Source: Candidatus Hydrogenedentota bacterium
GTDB lineage: Bacteria; Hydrogenedentota; Hydrogenedentia; Hydrogenedentales; JAEUWI01
Assembly: GCA_019637335.1 (NCBI GenBank)
Contig: JAHBVV010000014.1
Location: 1-64,000 of the forward strand
DNA: 64,000 bases
Reading direction: 5' to 3'
A program made the position numbers and the translations under genes. Positions 3,317 to 58,757 of the stretch are shown piece after piece. How positions within the stretch are numbered: position 1 is the first letter of the stretch; each line of letters opens with the position of its first letter. The notes below the pieces were generated by a model that was given only the letters and a program-made list of their open reading frames with translations, was not told where the DNA came from and ran no database searches.

Positions 3317-4162
3317 ATGGATCTCGCCCGGCAGACGCAGTTGGATGAAGAAGGCTATTGCATCGTTCCCGGCGTCGTGCCGCCCGGCCTGCTGGCGCGC
3401 CTGCGCGAGGAAACGGCCCGGATACTTGGCGGACTGCCGAAAGGTCATGAAGACGACAACCGATCCACCGGCAGCATGGTCACGGTGTACGAGAGCCCGG
3501 TCTTCGCCGACCTGATCGCCCTGCCGGAAGCCCGGGAGGCCCTGCGGTCGACCGGATTCCACGACGCGAAGTTCTCCAGCGGCTACATCATCAGCAAGCC
3601 ACCGAAAAGTCCACGCCTCTTCTGGCACTATGACTGGGCCGGGTGGGACGCGCCGGAATCCTTCACCGTGCGCCCGACGCCGCAACTCTTCTTCATGTAC
3701 TACCTCACGGACACCCGCCGCGAGAACGGTTGCCTCCGCGTCGTGCCCCGCTCCCACATCGAGGACAACGACCTTATCCCCCTGCTGGACGAGGCCCACA
3801 CGCCCGAACTGCTACGCGCGGCGGACCCGAGCCGTCCAGCCTTCAGCGACCGTCCCGACGAGGTGGACGTGCCCGTCACGGCGGGCGACCTGCTTATCGG
3901 CGACGCGCGCCTGCTCCACGCATCCCACGCGAACCAGAGCGACGAGCGGCGCACCGTGATTACACTCTGGTTCCACCCCGATCCGGATACCTTCGGCGAG
4001 CGCCTCCAGGCCTTCTGCGCCAACATGGTCGCCAAGACGCCCGCGGACTGGCCGGACGAGGCCAGGGCGAAGCTGGAAGCAATGGTGTGCCGGTACGCCG
4101 GAAGCGCCGAACCGTGGCCCTGGAACCGGCATCGCCCGTTTCCGGCGCGGGTGGGGGCGTAG
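3317..4162 (+). CDS. Phytanoyl-CoA dioxygenase (PhyH) family protein
   Basis: This 281-residue protein has the 2-oxoglutarate/Fe(II) dioxygenase pattern of the PhyH family. An H-x-D pair is at H104-D106 (FWHYDWAGWD), a distal histidine lies in LLHASHANQSDERR (H201 or H204), and the following arginine pair probably binds 2-oxoglutarate. A Shine-Dalgarno GGAG sits just before the ATG at 3317. The substrate is unknown; this family is abundant in planctomycete-like genomes and hydroxylates diverse small molecules. It lies 27 bases after the sialidase gene, so co-transcription is likely. Confidence 0.85.
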   Translation: MDLARQTQLDEEGYCIVPGVVPPGLLARLREETARILGGLPKGHEDDNRSTGSMVTVYESPVFADLIALPEAREALRSTGFHDAKFSSGYIISKPPKSPRLFWHYDWAGWDAPESFTVRPTPQLFFMYYLTDTRRENGCLRVVPRSHIEDNDLIPLLDEAHTPELLRAADPSRPAFSDRPDEVDVPVTAGDLLIGDARLLHASHANQSDERRTVITLWFHPDPDTFGERLQAFCANMVAKTPADWPDEARAKLEAMVCRYAGSAEPWPWNRHRPFPARVGA

Positions 4163-4226
4163 AGAGGCCTGAAGGACCTGAAGGACGATAGAGACTGGGC
4201 GACGGAACACTGAAAAGGAATTCAGG

Positions 4227-4406
4227 ATGACTAGACGGCTGACGGCAATCATCGAACGGGAAGGCGACGGCTATACCTCCCTGTGTCCGGAACTTGATAT
4301 TGCCAGCCAGGGCGACTCGGTCGATGAAGCTCGCAGAAACTTGCAGGAAGCTCTGGAGTTGTTCTTCGAGTCCGCGTCGCCAGAGGAGATTGAGGCACGA
4401 CTATAA
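4227..4406 (+). CDS. HicB-like antitoxin-fold protein, orphan
   Basis: A 59-residue product, MTRRLTAIIEREGDGYTSLC... onward, shows the HicB half-RNase-H pattern: an N-terminal strand with an acidic turn (EREGDGYTSLCPELD), then ASQGDSVDEARRNLQEALELFF. An AAAAGGA ribosome-binding site precedes the ATG. HicB normally pairs with the HicA RNA-cleaving toxin; no HicA (about 60-80 residues with a dsRBD-like fold and catalytic His) is seen within several hundred bases on either side. It has no C-terminal DNA-binding extension. It may be a solo HicB protein or the relic of a toxin-antitoxin pair. Confidence 0.75.
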   Translation: MTRRLTAIIEREGDGYTSLCPELDIASQGDSVDEARRNLQEALELFFESASPEEIEARL

Positions 4407-4433
4407 CCGGCGCAATGCAACCGCTGTCAGTTC

Positions 4434-4559
4434 GCAGGGACGCCAGGGACAGCAGCGACGGCAGGAAAAAATGCAACGGCGCACCATCGTAGCCCACTCC
4501 CGCACAATCTCGGAAAATTCTCCGGCGGTTCGCGAATCTGCTGTCCCTGCCGTCCCTGA
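4434..4559. repeat. Inverted pair of CTGTCCCTG-type repeats
   Basis: The 22 bases at 4434-4455 and the 22 bases at 4538-4559 are reverse complements with two mismatches; both belong to the TCCCTGCCG nonamer family seen at 421-534. The arms are separated by 82 bases, so the DNA or its transcript could form a long imperfect hairpin just before the aldolase start. No coding sequence is convincing here. Confidence 0.7.
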
Positions 4560-4608
4560 AGTCCCTGCCGTCACGAAGTGGCCTGGCCAACCTGGAAGCC
4601 CCAACCCC

Positions 4609-5520
4609 ATGCCCCCCACCACCGACCTCCGCGGTATCATTACCGTCCTGAACACCCCGTTTAACGCCGACGACACCCTTGATCTCCCCGGCCTCGCCCG
4701 TAATGTGGAGAACGCCATCCAGGCGGGCGTTGCGGGTTTTCTTATGCCCGCGATGGCCAGCGAAGTGGGCGCGCTTACGGAAGATGAGCGCGCCGCGGTC
4801 GTGCGCGCCACCGTCGATACCGCCGCCGGGCGCGTGCCGGTCATCGGCGGGGCTTCCGCGCCGGATCAGGCCGCCCGCCTGGCCGCCGCCCGCACCCTGA
4901 CGGGCCTCGGCTGCGCGGGGGTCCTGGTCAGCATACCCTTCACGGATGAAGCCGCCTACACCCGCGACGTGGAGGAGCTGGCGGCGCTGGATCCCGGCTT
5001 TCTCATGCTCCAGGACTGGGACGCGAATGGCTATGGCCTGCCCGTGCCGCTCATTGTGCGCCTCTTCGAGACCGTCCCCGCCTTCCAATGTCTGAAGATT
5101 GAGGTCGTGCCGGCCGGCCCGAAATACACCGAAGTCCTCGAAGCAACGGGCGGAAAGCTGCACGTTTCCGGCGGCTGGGCCGTGGGCCAGATGATCGAGG
5201 GGCTCGACCGCGGGGTCCACGCCTTCATGCCCACGGGGATGCACCGCATCTACACCACGATCTACCGCCGCTACACCCAGGGCGACCGGGAAGGCGCCCG
5301 CGCGCTCTTTGAGGAGCTGCTGCCCGTGCTCGCCTTCTCCAATCAGCACCTCGACATCTCGATCTGCTTCTTCAAGCGGCTGTTACACGCCCAGGGGATC
5401 TATGCCACGGACCGGGTGCGGTCGCCGCAGGTCGCCTTCGACGCAATCCATCAGAAGACGGCGGATGATTTGATCCGGCGCGTGATAGCGCTGGAGGCGC
5501 GGCTGACAGTTGACAGTTGA
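4609..5520 (+). CDS. DapA/NanA family aldolase (dihydrodipicolinate synthase-like)
   Basis: Starting at the ATG at 4609 gives 303 residues, the family's usual length. An upstream in-frame extension translates the repeat region and is rejected. The (beta/alpha)8 class I aldolase pattern is visible: RGIITVLNTPF at the N-terminus and a Schiff-base lysine at about K163 in FQCLKIEVVP. The usual GTTGE loop is replaced by AMASEVGAL, and the YNxP tyrosine motif by LQDWDANG, so it is unlikely to be a true dihydrodipicolinate synthase. Reaction and substrate (a 2-keto acid) are uncertain. Genes for a sialidase-like protein and an oxidoreductase nearby suggest sugar-acid breakdown. Its stop codon lies inside a heptamer repeat. 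Confidence 0.8.
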   Translation: MPPTTDLRGIITVLNTPFNADDTLDLPGLARNVENAIQAGVAGFLMPAMASEVGALTEDERAAVVRATVDTAAGRVPVIGGASAPDQAARLAAARTLTGLGCAGVLVSIPFTDEAAYTRDVEELAALDPGFLMLQDWDANGYGLPVPLIVRLFETVPAFQCLKIEVVPAGPKYTEVLEATGGKLHVSGGWAVGQMIEGLDRGVHAFMPTGMHRIYTTIYRRYTQGDREGARALFEELLPVLAFSNQHLDISICFFKRLLHAQGIYATDRVRSPQVAFDAIHQKTADDLIRRVIALEARLTVDS

Positions 5521-18571: not shown

Positions 18572-19099
18572 ATGGCCATGCTTTGCCAGAAATGCCATAA
18601 GCGGCGGGCGACCATCCGTTACGCCGAGGTTGTGGACGGGCGGGTAACCGACCAGTTCTGGTGCAAGGAGTGTCTGGCCCAGCAGCGGAGCGCGAACGAG
18701 GGCTTCGAGCTTTCCGAAGTGCCGCCCACGCGCCCGAGCAAGGCGTCGATCCACAAGGTGGTAAGCAATGTGGTCCGCGCGCAGCGGGCCTGTCCGGAGT
18801 GCGACACGCGGCTTCAGATCGTCCTGGAAACGCGTCAGGTCGGATGCGCGTCGTGTTACCGCCATTTTGTGGACGAGCTGCCGGCGCTGCTTCAGCAGTT
18901 ACATGACGCGCAGCGCCACCGGGGGAAAGCCCCCCAGGCGTCGGATGCGCGTTCCCAGTTGCGTTCCGACCTCCTGGCCAAGCGCGCGTTGTTGCGCAGT
19001 ATGCTCAAGGCCGAAAACTACGAAGAAGCAGCCACGCTGCGCGACGAGATTCGCGATCTGGAAGGCGATCTTTCATCGCCAGGCGCCGGGGTGGAGTAG
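18572..19099 (+). CDS. mcsA: McsA-like zinc/UVR protein
   Basis: The 175-residue product has four CxxC pairs in the first 95 residues (CQKC, CKEC, CPEC, CASC) that bind zinc as in McsA. A UVR motif follows (LLRSMLKAENYEEAATLRDEIRD) for contact with ClpC or UvrB-type partners. In Firmicutes McsA activates the arginine kinase McsB. AAAGGA lies close to the ATG at 18572; the ATG at 18578 has better spacing. The mcsB-like gene follows after three bases and clpC after that, the classic order. Confidence 0.9.
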   Translation: MAMLCQKCHKRRATIRYAEVVDGRVTDQFWCKECLAQQRSANEGFELSEVPPTRPSKASIHKVVSNVVRAQRACPECDTRLQIVLETRQVGCASCYRHFVDELPALLQQLHDAQRHRGKAPQASDARSQLRSDLLAKRALLRSMLKAENYEEAATLRDEIRDLEGDLSSPGAGVE

Positions 19100-19102
19100 C
19101 CG

Positions 19103-20293
19103 ATGTCGATCGAAAGCCTCATAGCTCGCGACCCGCGCTGGCAGGACTGCGGCGGGGCGGCGCATTCCGGCACGGTGGTGCTGGGGACATGCAACCTGGC
19201 GCGCAACCTGCCCGATCTGCCTTTTCCAGCATCCGCCGGCCCCGATGAGCGCGAGGCGGCGGAGGCCCGCGCGCTGGGCGCGTTCGAGCGCCTGGGCCTG
19301 CTGGACACCGGCGAGTACTTTTCGCTGGCCGCGCTGAATCCGGCGGAGTTGCAGCTGCTGGCCGAACGGCAGCTGATCACGCTGGAGATGACGGCTCCCC
19401 GGAAGGGCCAGGGCGTCTATGTGTCGGAGGACCAGAGCCTTGCGGTGCTGTTGAACGACACGGATCACTGCTGCATCCGCGTGCTCGGGTCCGGGCTGGC
19501 GATCGAGGAGGCGTGGAACCGGGCGAGCGCTCTGGACGACCAGTTGAATGACTCGCTGGACTTTGCGTATTCGAACGAGTTGGGTTATCTGACACGCAGC
19601 CTGAGCCACACCGGCACGGGGCTGCGGCTGACCCTGTTGCTGCACCTGCCGGCCTGCGCGCAGGAGAGCCTGCTGAACGATGCAGGCGCGCTGCACGAGT
19701 TGCAGCAGTCGGCGGAGCGGCTGGACCTGGAACTCGTCGGCGTGGGCACCGGGCTGCCGGACAAGCACCCGGTGACGGCCCGCGAACAGGGCGAGCGTTC
19801 GGTGGTTTGCCGGCAGGCGCTGTACCACGGGATGAACGGGTTCCCGGCGCGCGGCCTGCACGACACCGAGGGCGACCTGTTTCAACTGCGAAACCGGACG
19901 TCGCTTGGCCGCTCCGAGGAAGACCTCGTGTACCGGCTGAAGCAGTGCGCGGGGGAGATTGTCCGGCGCGAGGCCGAGCTGCGCGAACGCCTCCGGGCGA
20001 CCTTCGCCGATCTGCTGGAAGACCGGGTGGAGCGTGCGCGGGCGCTCGCGACGAATGCGCGCCTGATGCCGTTTGACGAGAGCGTGTCGCTGTTGTCCTC
20101 GCTCCGCCTGGGTGTAACGTTGGGCCTGATCTCGGATCGCACAGTGGCGGACCTGAACGGCTCGCTGATACACTGTCAGGGCGCACACGTCGAGCGGCAG
20201 TTGCAGCCGGGCGTGGACACGGTGGACGAACTGGCGCTGAAGCGGCTTCGGGCGCGGCAGTTGAAGCAGCTGTTCATGCCGGCGCAGGGCTGA
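19103..20293 (+). CDS. mcsB: McsB-like guanidino kinase, predicted catalytically dead
   Basis: The 396-residue product aligns with McsB over its length, including GYLT...GTGLRLTLLLHLPA, ELEDR-like LLEDRVERARALATNARL and SLRLGVTLGLI. Key residues differ. The SSRIRLARN ATP-phosphate loop is GTCNLARN, one residue shorter and without its first arginine. The catalytic cysteine of the GYLTSCPTN motif is Ser166 in GYLTRSLSHTGTG. The GEGSEA acidic loop is absent, and the C-terminal RD phospho-arginine pocket is replaced. It therefore probably cannot phosphorylate arginine, but may still act as a ClpC adaptor or regulator with McsA. It is still co-located with mcsA and clpC, arguing for a retained role. 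Confidence 0.85.
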   Translation: MSIESLIARDPRWQDCGGAAHSGTVVLGTCNLARNLPDLPFPASAGPDEREAAEARALGAFERLGLLDTGEYFSLAALNPAELQLLAERQLITLEMTAPRKGQGVYVSEDQSLAVLLNDTDHCCIRVLGSGLAIEEAWNRASALDDQLNDSLDFAYSNELGYLTRSLSHTGTGLRLTLLLHLPACAQESLLNDAGALHELQQSAERLDLELVGVGTGLPDKHPVTAREQGERSVVCRQALYHGMNGFPARGLHDTEGDLFQLRNRTSLGRSEEDLVYRLKQCAGEIVRREAELRERLRATFADLLEDRVERARALATNARLMPFDESVSLLSSLRLGVTLGLISDRTVADLNGSLIHCQGAHVERQLQPGVDTVDELALKRLRARQLKQLFMPAQG

Positions 20294-20448
20294 GCAGCGC
20301 GTTGGCCGGGCCATCAAAACGGTTTTGGATTGCTTGACCGCGGGCCAATTTCGGGCTTCCGAAGGCTTTACGCGCGGCACTGAGTTGATACGCCTTTTCC
20401 GGCGCCCCCAGCGGCGCGCCGCCAGGCCATACACGAAAGGATTACCAC

Positions 20449-22911
20449 ATGTGGGAACGCTTTACCGAGCGGGCTAAGCACGTAGTCAGCGCCGCCCGCG
20501 AAGAGGCCACCCGCCTGGGCAGCGAATACGTCCGTACGGAGCACATCCTCCTGGGGTTGTGCCGCGAGCCCGAGGGCATCGCTGCGCGCGCGCTGGAAAA
20601 CCTGGGGGTGGATATCGAGGCGCTTGCGATCGAGATCGAGCAGCAGGTGCAGCCCGGTTCGGCCGTGGTATCCAACGACGAGATCGCGTTTACGCCGCGC
20701 GCAAAGAAGGTGCTGGAGCTGGCGGTGGAGGAGGCGCGCCGCTTCAACCACAGCTATATCGGCACGGAGCACATCCTGCTGGGCCTGCTGAAGGAGGGCG
20801 AGGGCATCGCGGCGAAGGTCTTGCAGGACATGAAGATAGACCTGGGCCGCATTCAGGCGGAGGTGATCCGGCTGCTGGGCGACCAGGGCCGCTCCCCGGG
20901 CGAGCAGGCGCAGACGGGCAAGAAATCGCAGACGCCGGCGCTGGACAATTTCGGCCGGGACCTCACGCAGCTTGCGCGCGAGGACAAGCTGGACCCGGTA
21001 ATCGGTCGCGAGGGCGAGATCGAGCGGGTGATCCAGGTGCTCAGCCGCCGCACGAAGAACAACCCGGTGCTTATTGGCGAGGCGGGCGTGGGCAAGACGG
21101 CGATCGTCGAGGGCCTGGCGCGGGCGATCATCGCGGGCGATGTGCCGGATCTTCTGTTGAAGAAGCGGGTGCTGACGCTGGATCTGGCGGGTGTGGTGGC
21201 GGGGACGAAGTACCGCGGACAGTTTGAAGAGCGCCTGAAGTCGGTGATGAAGGAAATTCGCCGCGCGGACAACATTATCCTCTTTATTGACGAGTTGCAC
21301 ACGATTGTGGGCGCTGGCGCGGCGGAGGGCGCGGTGGACGCGGCCAACATGCTCAAGCCGGCGCTGGCGCGCGGCGAACTGCAATGCATCGGCGCGACGA
21401 CGATGGACGAGTATCGCAAGTACATCGAGAAGGACGCGGCGCTGGCGCGGCGCTTTCAGACGATTATGGTGGAGGCGCCGAGCGTGGCGCAGACGATCGA
21501 GATTATCAAGGGCCTTCGCGACAAGTACGAGGCGCACCACCGGGTGAAGTTCTCGGACGAGGCGGTGATCGCGGCGGCCAAGCTTTCGAACCAGTATATT
21601 GCGGATCGCTTCCTGCCGGACAAGGCGGTGGACGTGATTGACGAGGCGGGCAGCCGCGCGCGGCTGCAAATTACGACGCGCCCGATCGAATTGAAGGAGA
21701 TCGAGCAGGAGATCGAGACGGTAACGCAGGAAAAGGAATCGGCGATCCGCCGCCAGGAATACGAAAAGGCGGCATCGCTGCGCGACAAAGAGCGGACGCT
21801 GATCAACAAGCTGGAGGAGAAGAAGCGGGAGTGGGAGCTGAAGCGGGATTCGGCGGAAACCGTTATCAACGAGGAAGATATCGCCTATATCGTGTCGAAA
21901 TGGACGGGGGTGCCGCTCACGAAGCTGGAGGAGAACGAATCGGAGCGTCTGCTGCGCATGCGCGAGGAGCTTCACCGTTCGGTTATCGGCCAGGAGGAGG
22001 CTATCGACTCGATCACGCGGGCTATTCAGCGGTCGCGGGCCGGTTTCCGGGATCACGCGCGGCCGGTGGGTTCTTTCCTGTGCCTGGGCCCGACGGGGGT
22101 GGGCAAGACGCTGCTGGCGAAGACGCTGGCGATGTTCCTTTTCGGCAACGAGGACGCGCTGATCACGGTGGACATGTCGGAGTACATGGAGCGCTTTGCT
22201 GTATCGCGGCTGACCGGGGCCCCCCCGGGGTACGTGGGCTACAACGAAGGTGGCCAGCTGACGGAGCAGGTCCGGCGGCGCCCCTATTCGGTGGTGCTTT
22301 TCGACGAGATCGAGAAGGCGCACCCGGACGTGTTCAACGCGCTGCTCCAGGTGCTGGAGGAGGGCCACATGACGGACTCCACGGGCCGGAAGGTGGACTT
22401 TCGCAACACGGTCATCATCATGACGAGCAACGTGGGCGCGCGCCGGATCGGCAAGGGCGGGGGCACGCTGGGGTTCCAGCGCGACGACGAGGAGTCGCAG
22501 TACCAGAAGATGAAGGAGAAGGTGATCGAGGAGGCGAAAAAGGTGTTCAATCCGGAGTTTATGAACCGGCTTGACGACACCCTCGTGTTCCACCGGCTGA
22601 CGGACGAGCAGCTGATCGATATTGTCGACATCCACGTGAAGGATATGGTGGAACGCGTTGCGGAAAAGGGTGTACACTTGCGGCTGCGCCGCGACGCCAA
22701 GGAATTCCTGGTGCGCGTGGGGAGCAACGAGGAGTATGGCGCGCGCCCCCTGCGCCGCGCGGTGCAGCAATACGTTGAGGACCCCCTGGCGGAACTGTTG
22801 CTTCGGGGGAATCTGGAACCTGGTTCACGAATCGAAGTCTGGCCGTCGGATACCGAGGAAAAGCTGGTGTTCGAGCAGGCGGAATTAGCCGCGGAAGGTG
22901 TAGCTACTTGA
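20449..22911 (+). CDS. clpC: ClpC-type AAA+ unfoldase
   Basis: This 820-residue Clp/Hsp100 ATPase has two N-terminal repeat blocks ([10 protein letters not shown] and [16 protein letters not shown]), Walker A motifs at about residues 210-217 (GEAGVGKT) and 547-554 (GPTGVGKT), and a UVR-type segment ([15 protein letters not shown]) in the middle region that marks ClpC rather than ClpB. It feeds ATP-unfolded proteins to a ClpP peptidase; no clpP is in the window. It follows mcsB by 155 bases. Its last codons overlap the TTG start of bamA by TTGA, coupling quality control to outer-membrane assembly in one transcript. Confidence 0.97.
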
Positions 22912-25205
22912 AGAAACTAGCGTTGGGCTTTGCCCTCACGCTGATCGCCCTGGCCCTCCAGTCCCCCGCACCGGCGCAGGAAGCCGGCAATGTGGGCGCC
23001 GTCCGTATAGACGGCCTGGAGCGCGTGAGCGAACAGCTGGTCCGTTCCAAGCTGGAGGTGCAAGCGGGTCAGGAGTACAACCCCCGCGCGGTCTCCCGCG
23101 ACATTCGCCGCCTCTACGACCTGGGCTTCTTCACGCATATTGAAGCGGACGCGACCCGGGAGAGCGGCGCGATCACCGTGACCTACGCGGTTACCGAGAA
23201 GCAGGTAATTGAGAAGGTCCTGGTGATGGGCAACCGCAAGATCAAGGAGCGGCGCATTCTCTCCGCCCTGACGATGCGCGAGGGCGATCCCTTTATCCCC
23301 GAAGCGATCGAAGAGCAGCGCTCCGCGGTCCTGGATCTGTATGAGGGGAAAGGGTTTGCGAACGCGACGGTCGATATCGTGGCGGAGCGCGTGGGCCCTT
23401 CGCGGGTGCGGCTCAGCTACGACATCCAGGAGGGGACGAAGGCGAAGATCCGCAGCATCACGTTTGTGGGCAATGAGGCGCTGAGTTCGCGCAGGCTCCG
23501 CAAGCTGATGCTCACGAAGCGCGCCTTTTGGTTCCTGGGCGGGAAGTACGAGGAGGAGAAGCTGGAGCACGATCTGCAGAAAATCATCGACAATTATGGT
23601 GATTTCGGGCGTCTGGAGGCGGAGATTACCCGCACCGACCTGCTTTACACGGGCAACGGCCGGCGGATGGAGCTGACGGTGTATCTTCAGGAGGGCGCGG
23701 AATACCGCGTGGACAATCTCGATGTCGCGGGCAATATTGTTTATGACGACGACGAGCTTGTGGACCTGGTGGAGGTGACCGCGGGCGAAGTGCACAACAA
23801 GTCGCAGGTGGAGCGCGACGCCGGCGTGCTGGAGAAGAACTACCAGACGAGCGGGTACGTTGCGGCGGATGTTACGCCGATCGTCACGCTTGATCGGGAC
23901 ACGAAGACGACACGGGTGACGCACCGCATCGCGGAGGGCGACCTCAAGTATATTCGCGAGATCAAGATTATTGGCAACGAATTGACGAAGGACGAGGTCA
24001 TCCGCCGTCAGGTGGCGTTGAATCCGGGGGATCGCTACGATGGTTCGCTCGTGGAGCTGAGCGAGCGCGGCTTGCGGCGCACGGAGTACTTCGACACCGT
24101 TCGCACGAGCCTGGATTTCGCCGATCAGGACGATCTCTTCACCAACCTGATTTTCGACGTGGAGGAGGGCAAGCAGGGCAACTTCACGTTTGGCGGCGGT
24201 TTCAGCACCGACGAAGGCGTGGGCGGTTTTGCGGAACTGCGCCTGAACAATTTTGACGCGACCAACTGGCCCAACTTCACGGGCGGCGGCCAGCAGCTTG
24301 CGGTCCGCCTGAACGTGGGCAGCCAGCGGGATCAGTACTCGCTGAGCTTCACGGATCCCGAGATACTGGGGTATCCGTTTGCGCTTGGCTTTGATGTTTT
24401 CGACGATTCCTACAGCATCCGCGGAGGCGCGAGCTACCGGGAAGAGCGGCGGGGCGGCCAGATCCGTCTGGGGAAGGTCCTTTCCAACTATGTCAGCTAT
24501 CGCGGCGCCTTGCTGTACCAGACGACGGAGATAACGGAGCTGCCGTTTTTCGTGAACCCGGCGATCCGGCGGCAGGCGGGCGAGACGACGACGGTGAGCC
24601 TGCGCAACGAGCTCGAGCGCAACACGCTGAACGCGTTCCGGGATCCGTCTCGTGGCAGCAAGCACGTCCTGAGCCTGGAGCTGGCGGGCCTGGGCGGGGA
24701 CAACGAGTTCTACAAGCTGTTTCTTGATTCGACGTGGTACCGGGCGGTGGACAAGGAGGAGAAGTGGATCCTCTCGTTCCGGTCGCGCGAGGGCTACGTG
24801 GCCGAATACGGCGGATCGGATTTCGTGCCGCTTACGGACAAATTCTATGCGGGCGGCACGACGACGGTGCGCGGGTATGACAACCGGGATATTGGCCCGA
24901 AAGCGCGGGAGTTCATAATCTTCGGTGACCGGTTCCCGCTCGGGGGCAACCTGCTGTACATTGGCAACCTGGAGATGAAGTACAAGCTCACGGAGCAGGT
25001 TCGTTTCTACAGCTTTGTCGACGCCGGCGGCGTCTGGGACGATGACGACTTCGACTTCGGCGAGATGCGCTACAGCGCGGGTATCGGGTTTGGCGTGGAA
25101 GTGCCCGCGCTGGGGCCGATCCGGGTGGACTACGCGATCCCGCTTAACGCGGACGACGATCAGGGCAGCGGACGCCTTCACCTGATTTCCGGAATTCGAT
25201 TCTGA
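22908..25205 (+). CDS. bamA: Outer-membrane assembly factor BamA
   Basis: The 765-residue product (TTG start overlapping the clpC stop) has a signal peptide ending near PAPAQ, then about five POTRA domains (for example VGAVRIDGLERVSEQLVRSK and IVYDDDELVDLVEVTAGEV). A C-terminal 16-strand barrel holds the VRGYDNRDIGPK lid motif and ends in phenylalanine. BamA folds and inserts beta-barrel proteins into the outer membrane and is essential in Gram-negative bacteria. The skp/ompH and lpx genes downstream place it in a classic envelope operon. A terminator follows at 25216-25264. Confidence 0.96.
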   Translation: MKKLALGFALTLIALALQSPAPAQEAGNVGAVRIDGLERVSEQLVRSKLEVQAGQEYNPRAVSRDIRRLYDLGFFTHIEADATRESGAITVTYAVTEKQVIEKVLVMGNRKIKERRILSALTMREGDPFIPEAIEEQRSAVLDLYEGKGFANATVDIVAERVGPSRVRLSYDIQEGTKAKIRSITFVGNEALSSRRLRKLMLTKRAFWFLGGKYEEEKLEHDLQKIIDNYGDFGRLEAEITRTDLLYTGNGRRMELTVYLQEGAEYRVDNLDVAGNIVYDDDELVDLVEVTAGEVHNKSQVERDAGVLEKNYQTSGYVAADVTPIVTLDRDTKTTRVTHRIAEGDLKYIREIKIIGNELTKDEVIRRQVALNPGDRYDGSLVELSERGLRRTEYFDTVRTSLDFADQDDLFTNLIFDVEEGKQGNFTFGGGFSTDEGVGGFAELRLNNFDATNWPNFTGGGQQLAVRLNVGSQRDQYSLSFTDPEILGYPFALGFDVFDDSYSIRGGASYREERRGGQIRLGKVLSNYVSYRGALLYQTTEITELPFFVNPAIRRQAGETTTVSLRNELERNTLNAFRDPSRGSKHVLSLELAGLGGDNEFYKLFLDSTWYRAVDKEEKWILSFRSREGYVAEYGGSDFVPLTDKFYAGGTTTVRGYDNRDIGPKAREFIIFGDRFPLGGNLLYIGNLEMKYKLTEQVRFYSFVDAGGVWDDDDFDFGEMRYSAGIGFGVEVPALGPIRVDYAIPLNADDDQGSGRLHLISGIRF

Positions 25206-25215
25206 TACGCTGATC

Positions 25216-25264
25216 GGGGCCCCGCCTCGCCTGCCAGGCAGGCGATTCGGGGTCCCGTTTTTCT
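25216..25264 (+). terminator. Rho-independent terminator after bamA
   Basis: A long stem is formed by GGGGCCCCG (25216-25224) pairing with CGGGGTCCC via one G-T pair; an inner TCGCCTGCC/GGCAGGCGA stem sits on top, and the arm is followed by CGTTTTT. It would separate the clpC-bamA unit from ompH, although read-through is possible. Confidence 0.75.
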
Positions 25265-25466
25265 TGCATGATTTCGCGCGTTGTTGATACAATCACCGGT
25301 GTCCCCGCTGGCTGGTCCGGCGCGTATTGGCCGGTGCGTTCCGGCGGCCGCGCCGGGTAACGGCCGGGGACGCCGCGGAAGGGCCCGGCCAAAAACATCA
25401 GGGCGGTTTCTGTTTGCCTCCTTGCACGGGTGACCGGCAAGCCAATAAAAAAAAGGACCAATTCAC

Positions 25467-26012
25467 GTGACTTCTACGCTCAAACACTTCATGACCCTTT
25501 CCATTTGCTGCGCGCTTCTGGCTGGCCTTGCGGCCCCGGGCGCTTTCGCCCAGGAGGGCGGCAACTACAAGATTGGCGTTGTCGACATGCAGGAGGTCCT
25601 GGCCAAGTACGAAAAGCGCAAGAGCAAGTACCAGGATCTGCAGAAGCAAGTTGACGCGCTCCAGAGCGGCATCGACAAGATGTCGGACCGGATCAAGGCG
25701 GCGCGCGACGACTACGAGAAGAAAAAGGGGCAACTTTCCGCGGATCAGCTGCTCGACCTGGAGACAAAGATCCGGGCCGACTATGCGGACTACCAGAGCG
25801 AGCTGACGAAGAGCCAGCAGCAGATCGACAGCATGGAGGCGAAGGTCCTCAAGGAAGTCGTGAAGGACGTTCAGGACGCGATTGAGGCCGTCGCCAACAC
25901 GGGGAATTATCATCTGGTGTTGAACAAGGAAGGCGGCCCGCGAAGCGCGGTATTGTTCGCCAGCACGACCATCGACATCACGTCGCAGGTCCTGCAGCAC
26001 TTGAACAAGTAG
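25467..26012 (+). CDS. ompH: Periplasmic chaperone OmpH/Skp
   Basis: This 181-residue protein begins at a GTG (25467) with AAAGGA upstream. It has a signal peptide ending near APGAFAQ and the Skp start IGVVDMQEVLAKYEK. The long helical arms with alternating Lys/Glu (DKMSDRIKAARDDYEKKKG) follow. Skp escorts outer-membrane proteins to BamA. Position between bamA and lpxD is conserved in many Gram-negative bacteria. Confidence 0.9.
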   Translation: MTSTLKHFMTLSICCALLAGLAAPGAFAQEGGNYKIGVVDMQEVLAKYEKRKSKYQDLQKQVDALQSGIDKMSDRIKAARDDYEKKKGQLSADQLLDLETKIRADYADYQSELTKSQQQIDSMEAKVLKEVVKDVQDAIEAVANTGNYHLVLNKEGGPRSAVLFASTTIDITSQVLQHLNK

Positions 26013-26057
26013 CGTGTTCGAAGGCGCCGCCACACCTTGAAATCCTTGAATGAAAGA

Positions 26058-26087
26058 CGCGTACCGGGTTCCCTTGCCCGGTACGCG
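26058..26087. terminator. Hairpin between ompH and lpxD
   Basis: An 11-bp perfect stem, CGCGTACCGGG (26058-26068) with CCCGGTACGCG (26077-26087), and an 8-base loop lie between the two genes. Only a weak T-rich stretch follows (GCCTGTTT), so it may attenuate rather than stop transcription. Confidence 0.45.
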
Positions 26088-26137
26088 CTTGCCTGTTTGG
26101 GGCAGGGTGTACTACCGCGGCGGATCGAGGCATCCTC

Positions 26138-27169
26138 ATGAAAATGACCGTAGCTGAGATCGCCGCGCTGGTCGGCGGCACGGTATCGGGGGATCCAACC
26201 GTTGTCATCACGGGCGTAAACGGCGTGGAACAGGCGCGCCCGGGGGAATTGTGTTTCATCCGGAGCAGCCGCTATCTCCCGCTGTTGAATGAATCGTCGG
26301 CATCCGCCGTCTTGATCCAGGAAGCGCCGGCGGGCCTGAAAATTCCCGCGATCGTCGTGGCGTCGCCGGACCAGTGCTTCGCGGTGATCCTGAAGCACTG
26401 CGAATCGAACTCGCTCCGGCATCCGCAGGGCATCCACCCGCGGGCGGTGATACACCCGTCGGCGATTCTCGGCCGGGATGTCGCGGCGGGTCCCTGCGCG
26501 GTGATCGAAGAGAACGCGCGCCTCGACGACGGCGTGGTGGTGTATGCGGGCGCCTATATCGGGCGCAACGTCCGGATTGGGGCCGGGACCGTGGTCTACC
26601 CGAATGTTACAATACGGGAAGAGACGGAGATAGGCCGGGATTGCATCGTTCACGCGGGCGCGACGATCGGGAGCGACGGCTTCGGGTACGCGAACGTGAA
26701 TGGCGAATGGGTCAAGATTCCACAGGTTGGCCGGGTGGTGCTAGGGGATGGCGTGGAGGTGGGATCGGGCACGGCGATAGATCGTGCGACGTTTGGCGAG
26801 ACTCGGATTGGCCGAGGTACGAAAATTGACAACCTGGTCCAGATTGGACACAATGTTCACATAGGCGAACATTGCGCGCTCGCCGGCATGGTCGGCGTTG
26901 CGGGCAGCGCCACGATCGAGGATGCCGTCCAGGTTGGCGCCTCGGCGGGCGTGAAGGGCCACATCACGATTGGCCGCGGCGCCATTGTCGCCGCGCGCGG
27001 CGGCGTAACGCGGTCGGTGGAGCCGGGCGCGATCGTGTCGGGCTTTCCGGCCATCGATCACGAAGAGGAGCGCCGGGTGCTGGTGGCGCAACGGCGGGTC
27101 CCGGAATTGATCCGGCGGGTTAAGTCGCTGGAACGCGCGCTGGACGCATTGAAAGAGCAGCTTCAATGA
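26138..27169 (+). CDS. lpxD: UDP-3-O-acylglucosamine N-acyltransferase LpxD
   Basis: The 343-residue protein has the LpxD N-terminal uridine-binding domain (EIAALVGGTVSGDP, GELCFIRSSRY) and then the left-handed beta helix of hexapeptide repeats (ILGRDVAAGPCAVIEENARL and later repeats). The catalytic histidine lies in QIGHNVHIGEHC. It adds the second 3-hydroxyacyl chain in lipid A synthesis. The start ATG at 26138 is followed by a second ATG six bases on. lpxC-fabZ follows with an ATGA overlap at 27166-27169. Confidence 0.96.
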   Translation: MKMTVAEIAALVGGTVSGDPTVVITGVNGVEQARPGELCFIRSSRYLPLLNESSASAVLIQEAPAGLKIPAIVVASPDQCFAVILKHCESNSLRHPQGIHPRAVIHPSAILGRDVAAGPCAVIEENARLDDGVVVYAGAYIGRNVRIGAGTVVYPNVTIREETEIGRDCIVHAGATIGSDGFGYANVNGEWVKIPQVGRVVLGDGVEVGSGTAIDRATFGETRIGRGTKIDNLVQIGHNVHIGEHCALAGMVGVAGSATIEDAVQVGASAGVKGHITIGRGAIVAARGGVTRSVEPGAIVSGFPAIDHEEERRVLVAQRRVPELIRRVKSLERALDALKEQLQ

Positions 27170-28494
27170 GCAGACAGAAGACGATCAGCAAGCCAGTGTC
27201 CTTTTCGGGAATCGGGCTGCATACGGGTAGCCTTACCACGGTAACGTTCAAGCCCGCCCCGGAAAACGCCGGTATAACGTTTTTTCGCGTGGACCTGGAC
27301 GGTAGCCCGCCGATTCCCGCCAACATCGACAATGTGGTGGACGTTTCGCGCGGCACGACGATCGGAATTGGCGACGCGAAGGTGCACACGGTGGAGCATG
27401 CGCTTGCGGCGATGGTGGGCCTGGGCATCGACAATCTGAACATCGAGCTGGACGCGGAGGAGATCCCGAACGGGGACGGCAGCTCGCTCCCGGTAATGGC
27501 GGCGCTGCAGAAGGCGGGGATTGTCGAGCAGAACGCGGACAAGCAATACATCACGGTGGACCGTCCGGTGTATTACCGGCAGGGGGATGTGACGCTGAGC
27601 ATCCTGCCGTCGGACGAGCTCCGGGTCTCGATGACGATCGCCTACGATCACGTGGCGATCGGGACGCAGTACGCCTCGTACACGATTACGGAAGATACTT
27701 TTACGCGCGAGATCGCGCCGGCGCGCACGTTTTGCTTCCTTCGCGAAGTGAAGATGTTGCAGGAGAAGGGCCTGATCCGGGGCGGGAGCCTGGAGAGCGC
27801 GGTGGTCATCGGGGATGACACCATCCTGAATGACGAATTGCGTTTCCCCGACGAGTTCGTGCGCCACAAGATTCTCGATCTGATTGGCGACATGTACCTG
27901 CTGGGCCGCCCGGTGAAGGGCCACGTGGTGGGGGTCAAGGGGGGCCACGAGAAGAACGTGCTGTTCTCCAAGCAGATCAAGGAGACGATCTCGAACGGGC
28001 ACGACAAGCGCGAGGCGCGCCCGCACCCGGTTTCGAAGATAACGCGCCCGCCGGCTCTGGACGTGAGCAAGATCATGAAGATCCTGCCGCACCGCTACCC
28101 CTTCCTGCTGGTGGATCGGATTCTTTCGTTTGTGCCGATGGAACGCGTGACGGGCATCAAGAACGTGACGGTAAACGAGCCGTTTTTCCAGGGTCACTGG
28201 CCCGAGACCCCGGTGATGCCGGGCGTCATGATTGTCGAAGCGATGGCGCAGGTGAGCGCGGTGTTGATTTTCGGCGATGGCCGGGAGCCGGACGGCAAGC
28301 TGGCGTTTTTCCTGGGGGTGGACAAGGCGAAATTCCGCCGGACGGTAGTGCCGGGCGACCAGCTCATCATCGAATGCGAGATGGTGCGGCGTCGGAAGAA
28401 CGCGTGCAAGGTGGCGGCCAAGGCGCTGGTGGACGGGCGCGTGGCGGCGGAGGCCGTGATGACGTTCGGGCTGATGCCGATGGAGCAGCAGTAG
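27166..28494 (+). CDS. lpxC/fabZ: Bifunctional LpxC-FabZ fusion
   Basis: The 442-residue product joins two enzymes. LpxC (residues 1 to about 280) has the zinc-binding EHALAA histidine, and the GHVVGVKGGHEKN segment with a second histidine pair; it deacetylates UDP-3-O-acyl-GlcNAc, the first committed step of lipid A synthesis. FabZ (about 295-442) has HRYPFLLVDRI and the catalytic GHWPETPVMPGVMIVEAMAQ block, and dehydrates 3-hydroxyacyl-ACP. The fusion is known in Bacteroidetes and some PVC-like groups, where it balances lipid A against phospholipid synthesis. It overlaps lpxD by ATGA. Confidence 0.96.
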   Translation: MSRQKTISKPVSFSGIGLHTGSLTTVTFKPAPENAGITFFRVDLDGSPPIPANIDNVVDVSRGTTIGIGDAKVHTVEHALAAMVGLGIDNLNIELDAEEIPNGDGSSLPVMAALQKAGIVEQNADKQYITVDRPVYYRQGDVTLSILPSDELRVSMTIAYDHVAIGTQYASYTITEDTFTREIAPARTFCFLREVKMLQEKGLIRGGSLESAVVIGDDTILNDELRFPDEFVRHKILDLIGDMYLLGRPVKGHVVGVKGGHEKNVLFSKQIKETISNGHDKREARPHPVSKITRPPALDVSKIMKILPHRYPFLLVDRILSFVPMERVTGIKNVTVNEPFFQGHWPETPVMPGVMIVEAMAQVSAVLIFGDGREPDGKLAFFLGVDKAKFRRTVVPGDQLIIECEMVRRRKNACKVAAKALVDGRVAAEAVMTFGLMPMEQQ

Positions 28495-49604: not shown

Positions 49605-49973
49605 TCAGCTTGCGGGGGCTGGCGGGGCCGTCTTCTTGGAGGCTTTCTTCTTGGCAGCAGGCTTCTTCGCCGCCGCCTTCTTCTTCGCGGCGGGCTTCTT
49701 CGCCGCCGCCTTCTTCTTCGCGGCAGGCTTCTTCGCCGCCGCCTTCTTCTTCGCGGCAGGCTTCTTCGCCGCCGCCTTCTTCTTCGCGGCGGGCTTCTTC
49801 GCCGCCGCCTTCTTCTTCGCGGCGGGCTTCTTCGCCGCCGCCTTCTTCTTCGCGGCGGGCTTCTTCGCCGCCGCCTTCTTCTTCGCGGCAGGCTTCTTCG
49901 CCGCCGCTTTCTTTGCGGCAGGCTTCTTCGCCGCCGCCTTCTTCTTCGCGGCAGGCTTCTTCGCAGCGACCAT
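49605..49973 (-). CDS. Lysine/alanine-rich H1-like DNA-binding protein
   Basis: From the ATG at 49973 (AGGAG upstream) the product is 122 residues, almost all built of an 11-residue unit AAAKKPAAKKK repeated about nine times, ending KKTAPPAPAS. The unit is 33 bases and nearly uniform at DNA level. Eukaryotic H1 tails and bacterial HctB/AlgP-type proteins have the same composition and bind DNA or RNA through charge. It is expected in the nucleoid. The repeat number is likely variable through slippage. The complementary strand is also open but encodes an unlikely Phe/Ala chain. Confidence 0.85.
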   Translation of the reverse strand: MVAAKKPAAKKKAAAKKPAAKKAAAKKPAAKKKAAAKKPAAKKKAAAKKPAAKKKAAAKKPAAKKKAAAKKPAAKKKAAAKKPAAKKKAAAKKPAAKKKAAAKKPAAKKKASKKTAPPAPAS

Positions 49974-58174: not shown

Positions 58175-58757
58175 GGCGGGGTGGATGGGGCGGGCTGGTA
58201 TGACGGGCGCCTTTGGCGCGGAAATGCCGGCAGGGATGCCGGCGCTTCATCGGGCTGATCGTCTGGAGTCTACGCTCCGAAAGGTCGCCGGGTGGAGGCG
58301 CGCCGTTGGCGCGGAAATGCCGGCAGGGATGCCGGCGCTCCATTGCGCTGATCGCGTTGTGTCTACGCTCCGAATGGTCGCCGGGTGGTGGTCCGCCGTT
58401 GGCGCGGAATTGCCGGCAGGGATGCCGGCGCTCCATTGCGCTGATCGCGTTGTGTCTACGCTCCGAATGGTCGCCGGGTGGTGGTGCGCCGTTGGCGCGG
58501 AAATGCCGGCAGGGATGCCGGCGCTTCATCGGGCTGATTGCGTTGTGTCTGCGCTCCGAAAGGTCACCGGGTGGTGGCGCGCCGTTGGCGTGGTGCGGGC
58601 GGGATGCCCGCCATGGTGGGTCGGCGAGCTTTACCACATTCAAAGCCACTTTTTGGGGCACATTCACTTGGAGGCGTTGCGCGATTGCATCGTTTCGCGG
58701 GCGGGCAGTACCATGGGCGGGTGCAGTCAGGACGGCGGGGCATGAGGATAGGCGCGC
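58175..58757. other. Intergenic region occupied by the 93-bp array
   Basis: No gene is supported between the toroid protein and the bi-domain oxidoreductase. The array at 58203-58600 fills most of it; the remaining bases (58601-58757) should contain the promoter of the glycan operon. Confidence 0.6.
58203..58600. repeat. Tandem array of a 93-bp unit (about four copies)
   Basis: The core TGCCGGCAGGGATGCCGGCG recurs at 58225, 58318, 58411 and 58504, an exact 93-base spacing. Each unit holds the palindrome GCCGGCA-GGGA-TGCCGGC and a CGATCGCG/GCTACGCTCCGAA-type segment. A fifth degenerate unit follows (58560-58610). The array lies between two plus-strand genes. As 93 is 31 codons, an open frame runs through it, but the product is not convincing. 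Confidence 0.9.

Follow-up and report, generated by a model that had tools for sequence, protein, structure and literature searches.

The window analysed here (64,000 nucleotides of contig JAHBVV010000014.1 from a Candidatus Hydrogenedentota bacterium) carries a homologue of McsB, to our knowledge the sole known bacterial protein-arginine kinase, that lacks the active site (referred to here as pseudo-McsB), which raises the question of what an McsB stripped of its chemistry could still do beside ClpC. The first-pass annotation placed the gene between mcsA and clpC, and this holds in the window, with mcsA on its 5' side and clpC on its 3' side. The genes over positions 18572-28494 (+) follow the order mcsA, mcsB, clpC, bamA, skp/ompH, lpxD, lpxC-fabZ:

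18572..19099, + strand: mcsA-like gene, 175 aa (NCBIfam NF053706, E 1.2e-27, score under the cut-off of that model); the product has eight zinc-binding Cys arranged as four pairs, plus a C-terminal UVR-like segment
19103..20293, + strand: pseudo-McsB gene, an mcsB homologue lacking the active site, 396 aa
20449..22911, + strand: clpC, 820 aa, directly 3' of mcsB (Pfam Clp_N, AAA, AAA_2, ClpB_D2-small and UVR)
22908..25205, + strand: bamA, overlapping the end of clpC (Omp85 and five POTRA)
25467..28494, + strand: skp/ompH, lpxD and an lpxC-fabZ fusion, the outer-membrane genes after bamA

The pseudo-McsB reading frame extends from an ATG at 19103, three bases past the mcsA stop, to a stop at 20293. 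The protein matches PF00217 (Pfam, E 1.3e-33) and the NCBIfam McsB models (lowest E 7e-61), yet scores of 206 and 176 bits against cut-offs of 385 and 500 leave it below the McsB equivalog thresholds. Homology to the family extends over the full length, and the best PDB chains are McsB both by sequence and by fold. The AlphaFold2 model is confident (mean pLDDT 90.9, pTM 0.90), with the low-confidence part lying mainly at residues ~221-250 of the lid region (pLDDT 49-64), and Foldseek matches it to McsB (6fh1, E 1.3e-26, TM 0.90) and to the McsA-McsB complex (8gqd, E 3.4e-21).

The active site was compared column by column with Geobacillus stearothermophilus McsB (6fh1) and 30 canonical McsBs as the alignment reference, and eight catalytic or nucleotide-binding residues were scored. 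The segments that differ in the window protein, together with the loop equivalent to the McsA-binding loop of Staphylococcus aureus McsB, are:

19175..19207, + strand: residues 25-35, VVLGTCNLARN in place of VLSSRIRLARN; both SRxR arginines gone, R34-N35 retained
19454..19474, + strand: residues 118-124, NDTDHCC in place of NEEDHIR; both Glu and the Arg gone, N and H retained
19568..19588, + strand: residues 156-162, YSNELGY, corresponding to loop Y147-Y153 of S. aureus McsB; the G and the aromatics on either side are retained
19598..19600, + strand: Ser166 codon in the catalytic Cys column (Cys in 37/37 canonical, 0/56 Hydrogenedentota)
19736..19870, + strand: residues 212-256, lid region; a longer segment with QALYHGMNG in place of canonical RGxYGEGxEA, mostly predicted to be disordered
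20234..20254, + strand: residues 378-384, C-terminal phosphoarginine-pocket motif RDxxRA cut to RA

A single scored residue, the Arg of GTGLR, is retained out of eight. This is also the only survivor among the five arginines that contact the ATP phosphates (SRxR, NEEDHxR, GTGxR and the lid R): the SRxR arginines are substituted by Thr and Asn (R32>T and R34>N, 6fh1 chain positions), the Arg following NEEDH by Cys and the lid Arg by Val. Both catalytic glutamates are absent as well, the columns of the second NEEDH Glu and the lid Glu holding Thr120 and Gly251. The placement of Ser166 at the catalytic Cys of GYLTSCPTN, proposed in the first-pass annotation, is confirmed against 6fh1 and the canonical McsBs, and its description of a missing GEGSEA acidic loop fits the absence of the RGxYGEG lid, which a longer segment replaces. 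The C-terminal phosphoarginine pocket, called unrecognisable, has indeed lost the Arg-Asp of RDxxRA and keeps the terminal RA; the pair is R in 33/37 and D in 28/37 canonical sequences and mostly L and S/A in Hydrogenedentota. In Bacillus McsB the pocket mutation R337A/D338A destabilises McsB multimers (PMC8370763). One detail was misread: the SSRIRLARN loop, taken to be shortened, is substituted at equal length, since VLSSRIRLARNI aligns gap-free with VVLGTCNLARNL. An alternative active-site cysteine was rejected, there being no candidate in the catalytic column or conserved across the clade; C123, C124 and C185, which had been named as possible replacements, all fall outside that column and none is clade-conserved. 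In long-form homologues the disordered lid (window residues 240-250, about 19820-19852) carries a recurring motif, roughly [EQ]-[SAC]-[LM]-[YL]-x-D-[LM]-x-G, which is a possible short binding motif.

Mapping the substitutions onto McsBs of diverse phyla, as the first-pass annotation had suggested, places the loss in all 56 of the aligned Hydrogenedentota homologues. None of these has the catalytic Cys and none retains more than three of the eight residues, so a recent mutation in a single genome was rejected. A homologue is present in 54/60 relatives searched, and a PF00217 match was found in 60/68 Hydrogenedentota genomes, each time inside one gene. When the catalytic columns are left out of the tree, a branch with SH-aLRT support of 100 sets the 56 sequences apart as one group; tree inference was by quick search, and the position of long-branched degenerate rows outside Hydrogenedentota is unsure. 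Because 30/30 top-scoring McsBs of other phyla retain 8/8 residues, the alignment points to a loss that was probably single and ancestral, before Hydrogenedentota diversified. Of 80 named loci, degeneration affects 17/17 on the Hydrogenedentota side, and the motifs are kept, as far as the sequence extends, in 63/63 from other phyla (Planctomycetota, Verrucomicrobiota, Omnitrophota, Victivallaceae, KSB1, WOR-3, Elusimicrobia, Firmicutes and a few more), the latter being a non-random sample chosen by similarity in which one locus is truncated ahead of SRxR. Most genomes compared are metagenome assemblies.

The remainder of the phosphoarginine pathway was sought across the same phylum. A profile search of 68 Hydrogenedentota genomes found no second PF00217 gene, and the idea that an intact kinase is encoded elsewhere in these genomes was accordingly rejected; in the genome of the window the only PF00217 gene found is pseudo-mcsB. 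CtsR had no match in that genome. Neither PF00217 nor CtsR had a match in the Bacillus subtilis control, from which the ctsR-mcsA-mcsB-clpC stretch may be missing. The Thr of the CTGNTCR motif confers YwlE-type (arginine-phosphatase) specificity. This motif occurs in 0/68 Hydrogenedentota genomes, in 38/86 genomes with a high-scoring McsB and in 7/201 without McsB (Fisher p 1.5e-11 for the contrast, using 62 Hydrogenedentota genomes and ignoring shared ancestry). The only two LMW-phosphatase-type genes in the genome of the window are one of tyrosine type (CLGNICRS) and an arsenate reductase.

Pseudo-McsB is nonetheless under constraint, and the pattern of that constraint bears on three alternative readings. 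Decay into a pseudogene, or a faulty assembly, might be suspected from the disappearance of several invariant residues, but intact mcsB-homologue reading frames in more than 50 genomes, dN/dS of 0.04-0.28 in close pairs (well under 1, which indicates purifying selection), a confident fold and an invariant framework make this scarcely credible. The framework columns that are invariant or nearly so are W13, R34, N35, F41, E88, N118, H122, G161, L163, G171, E290, D307, R311, R383 and A384. An enzyme that still transfers phosphate through other residues would draw on the few positions retained in some members (E125 in 11/56, R129 in 16/56 and R180 in 18/56) and on the LYxD that is common in long-form lids and might replace LYGE. 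We regard this as very improbable, because there is no conserved Cys or carboxylate to take over, the acidic position of LYxD is occupied by G in the window protein, the arginine-phosphatase motif is absent, and the catalytic columns that are invariant in canonical McsB reach entropies of 2.3-3.6 bits in Hydrogenedentota, above the average column. A regulator gated by a ligand without phosphotransfer, with nucleotide, free arginine or free phosphoarginine held in a remodelled cleft, would account for the invariance or near-invariance of the cleft framework (R34-N35, N118, H122 and G171-T172-G173) and for the Arg or Lys found at the GTGL-R/K position in 40/56 sequences. The fold alone would also account for these residues, and most of the arginines for the ATP phosphates, together with the guanidinium-holding carboxylates, have been lost, with no conservation at these positions, which leaves this reading rather improbable. 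Judged from its residues, pseudo-McsB is almost certainly without kinase activity.

What has been kept alongside the fold is the equipment for McsA. The mcsA gene lies directly upstream of mcsB in 52/52 relatives as well as in the window, and the adjacent gene supplies the zinc-finger partner, complete with UVR-like segment, that belongs to the McsA-McsB-ClpC system. The eight Cys never vary across 70 Hydrogenedentota McsA sequences, and E-x-Y-E-x-A-A-x-L-R-D is likewise invariant, its L standing at 96 percent. In S. aureus, the catalytic Cys is positioned by the C-terminal zinc finger of McsA, which binds McsB at loop Y147-Y153 (PMC12467219). The equivalent loop in pseudo-McsB retains the glycine and the aromatic ends, though the Cys to be positioned is lost, and constitutes the strongest sequence hint of continued McsA binding; from these features pseudo-McsB probably still binds McsA.

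The link to ClpC is less direct. The clpC gene is directly 3' of mcsB in 31 loci spread over most Hydrogenedentota families; mcsAB is apart from clpC in several lineages, above all family f11, so that the operon link is not obligatory. In 20 further loci clpC adjoins mcsAB in 16, and all 16 show the clpC-bamA order. We also observed bamA followed by skp-lpxD-lpxC/fabZ on the 3' side of clpC, often overlapping it, at window positions 22908-28494 and in other loci (L255-L271; L118, L138, L142, L149, L218). Coupling to bamA was rejected as a Hydrogenedentota novelty, since the mcsA-mcsB-clpC-bamA order is also found with canonical mcsB in other phyla; the order therefore predates the McsB loss, and the position of pseudo-mcsB may be partly inherited.

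ClpC itself has changed within its N-terminal domain, for which the top PDB match in the window is ClpC 5hbn:

20524..20544, + strand: EYVRTEH in the ClpC N-terminal domain, with Arg for Gly two residues ahead of the pArg2 Glu (E32, Bacillus numbering)

E32 of ClpC is the pArg2 site (PMC12583610), and the substitutions beside it, Gly30 to Arg and His26 to Ser, are found nearly throughout Hydrogenedentota. EYVRTEH with a true Arg codon occurs in 53/68 Hydrogenedentota genomes and 0/318 others. EYV[R/S]TEH in 25 genomes outside Hydrogenedentota was rejected as the Arg variant, all codons being AGY (Ser). The SEYVRTEH segment lies in the first Clp_N repeat of Hydrogenedentota ClpC. Loss of phosphoarginine binding does not follow from these changes, because ClpC keeps both phosphoarginine-site glutamates and the E106 (pArg1) side is unchanged. 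They fit either reduced use of phosphoarginine or a new docking contact, as a correlation across one evolutionary event: the changes in ClpC, like the loss in McsB, arose a single time at the base of the phylum, and the two are statistically inseparable from common ancestry.

McsA/McsB is known as an adaptor in Bacillus. Set beside the operon position, the kept McsA-binding features and the phylum-specific ClpC changes, this makes a ClpC-adaptor role plausible. McsA and pseudo-McsB might instead serve apart from ClpC, perhaps as a scaffold that senses zinc or redox state, with the clpC adjacency a relic of inherited order; the separation of the mcsAB pair from clpC in some families, f11 among them, and the greater age of the operon order would allow this. 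With clpC still directly 3' in most families, however, and the fixed ClpC changes adjoining the pocket for adaptor and pArg docking, we consider such a role unlikely. An adaptor or scaffold is the best-supported role because the kinase chemistry is gone while the McsA-binding features are kept. We consider it reasonably likely that the window protein is an McsB-family pseudokinase, common to all Hydrogenedentota homologues found, that serves ClpC, together with McsA, as an adaptor or scaffold that does not depend on phosphoarginine. The first-pass annotation had proposed just such a pseudo-kinase adaptor regulating ClpC without arginine phosphorylation; the pseudokinase half is strongly supported by the phylum-wide loss of the active site, the fold, the McsA pairing, the purifying selection, the single kinase-family gene and the missing YwlE motif, and the ClpC-adaptor half is plausible. 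That pseudo-McsB acts on ClpC is, taken by itself, on balance probable.

The adaptor reading predicts an ancestor with an ordinary mcsA-mcsB-clpC operon, in which the arginine-kinase chemistry would then have been taken apart, from the arginines for the ATP phosphates and both catalytic carboxylates to the catalytic Cys, the lid and the allosteric phosphoarginine pocket, while the fold, the loop on which the zinc finger of McsA docks and the core of the dimerisation domain remained constrained. McsA would dock on pseudo-McsB and the complex would contact ClpC, whose N-terminal domain is also where adaptors such as MecA dock and lift repression, thereby activating ClpC and delivering substrates without phosphoarginine. 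The N-terminal domain of ClpC holds the resting state, which MecA or phosphoarginine releases at the same pockets, and it also binds McsA/McsB (PMC12583610); McsA-pseudoMcsB may likewise contact ClpC directly. Pseudo-McsB would thus resemble the MecA-type non-catalytic adaptors, which attach to ClpC and activate it without tagging substrates covalently, with the difference that ClpC binding has been demonstrated for MecA. The MecA fold is unrelated to that of McsB. With the McsB kinases of Bacillus, Geobacillus and Staphylococcus (PDB 6fh1, 6tv6, 8gqd) pseudo-McsB shares the fold, core length, McsA partner gene, place ahead of clpC, McsA-binding loop and core residues of the dimerisation domain; unlike them, it falls under the NCBIfam cut-offs and is without the catalytic Cys, catalytic Glu, SRxR arginines, RGxYGEG lid and RDxxRA pocket. 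The open-access literature searched, with partial coverage, yielded no description of McsB or phosphagen-kinase pseudokinases. The adaptor and kinase roles of McsB have so far been hard to separate, and Hydrogenedentota offer a natural separation-of-function experiment. They also advise caution, since not every mcsB can be annotated as a protein-arginine kinase.

Low-scoring McsB homologues outside Hydrogenedentota are also degenerate, often still between mcsA and clpC. A Chlamydia-type homologue (locus L128, G321:C8, mcsB at 3814-4884) retains 0/8 active-site residues, and its sister row on the tree, L123, retains 1/8. The 1.0-Mb genome of L128 has the order rpsB-tsf-pyrH-rrf-tRNAs-mcsA-mcsB-tRNA (names read off the ORFs), and mcsAB of C. 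trachomatis is likewise flanked by tRNAs (PMC10128030). Like the Hydrogenedentota proteins, the Chlamydia homologues lack SRxR, NEEDH, Cys and lid and adjoin mcsA; unlike the window, L128 has no clpC adjoining mcsB, and the literature calls the chlamydial protein a putative or retained arginine kinase. Arginine phosphorylation in Chlamydia has been stated to be an open question (PMC10128030), and recent chlamydial work builds on its possibility (PMC10128030, PMC11708050). The Chlamydia-type row is distant on the tree and its loss is thus probably separate. We tentatively extend the adaptor reading to a general, kinase-independent control of ClpC by McsA-McsB, in which loss of the kinase, once in Hydrogenedentota and separately elsewhere (Chlamydia included), left an McsA-pseudoMcsB adaptor behind on every occasion; this is possible, though somewhat short of probable. 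Further degenerate rows, many adjoining mcsA and clpC, are L135, L137, L119, L120, L124-L127, L136, L158, L159, L161-L164 and L166-L168; they suggest that kinase function was lost repeatedly across lineages, the long branches making the count unsure. Elsewhere in the window there are two tandem repeats, at 49645-49967 (33 bases, 9.8 copies) and 58207-58590 (93 bases, 4.1 copies).
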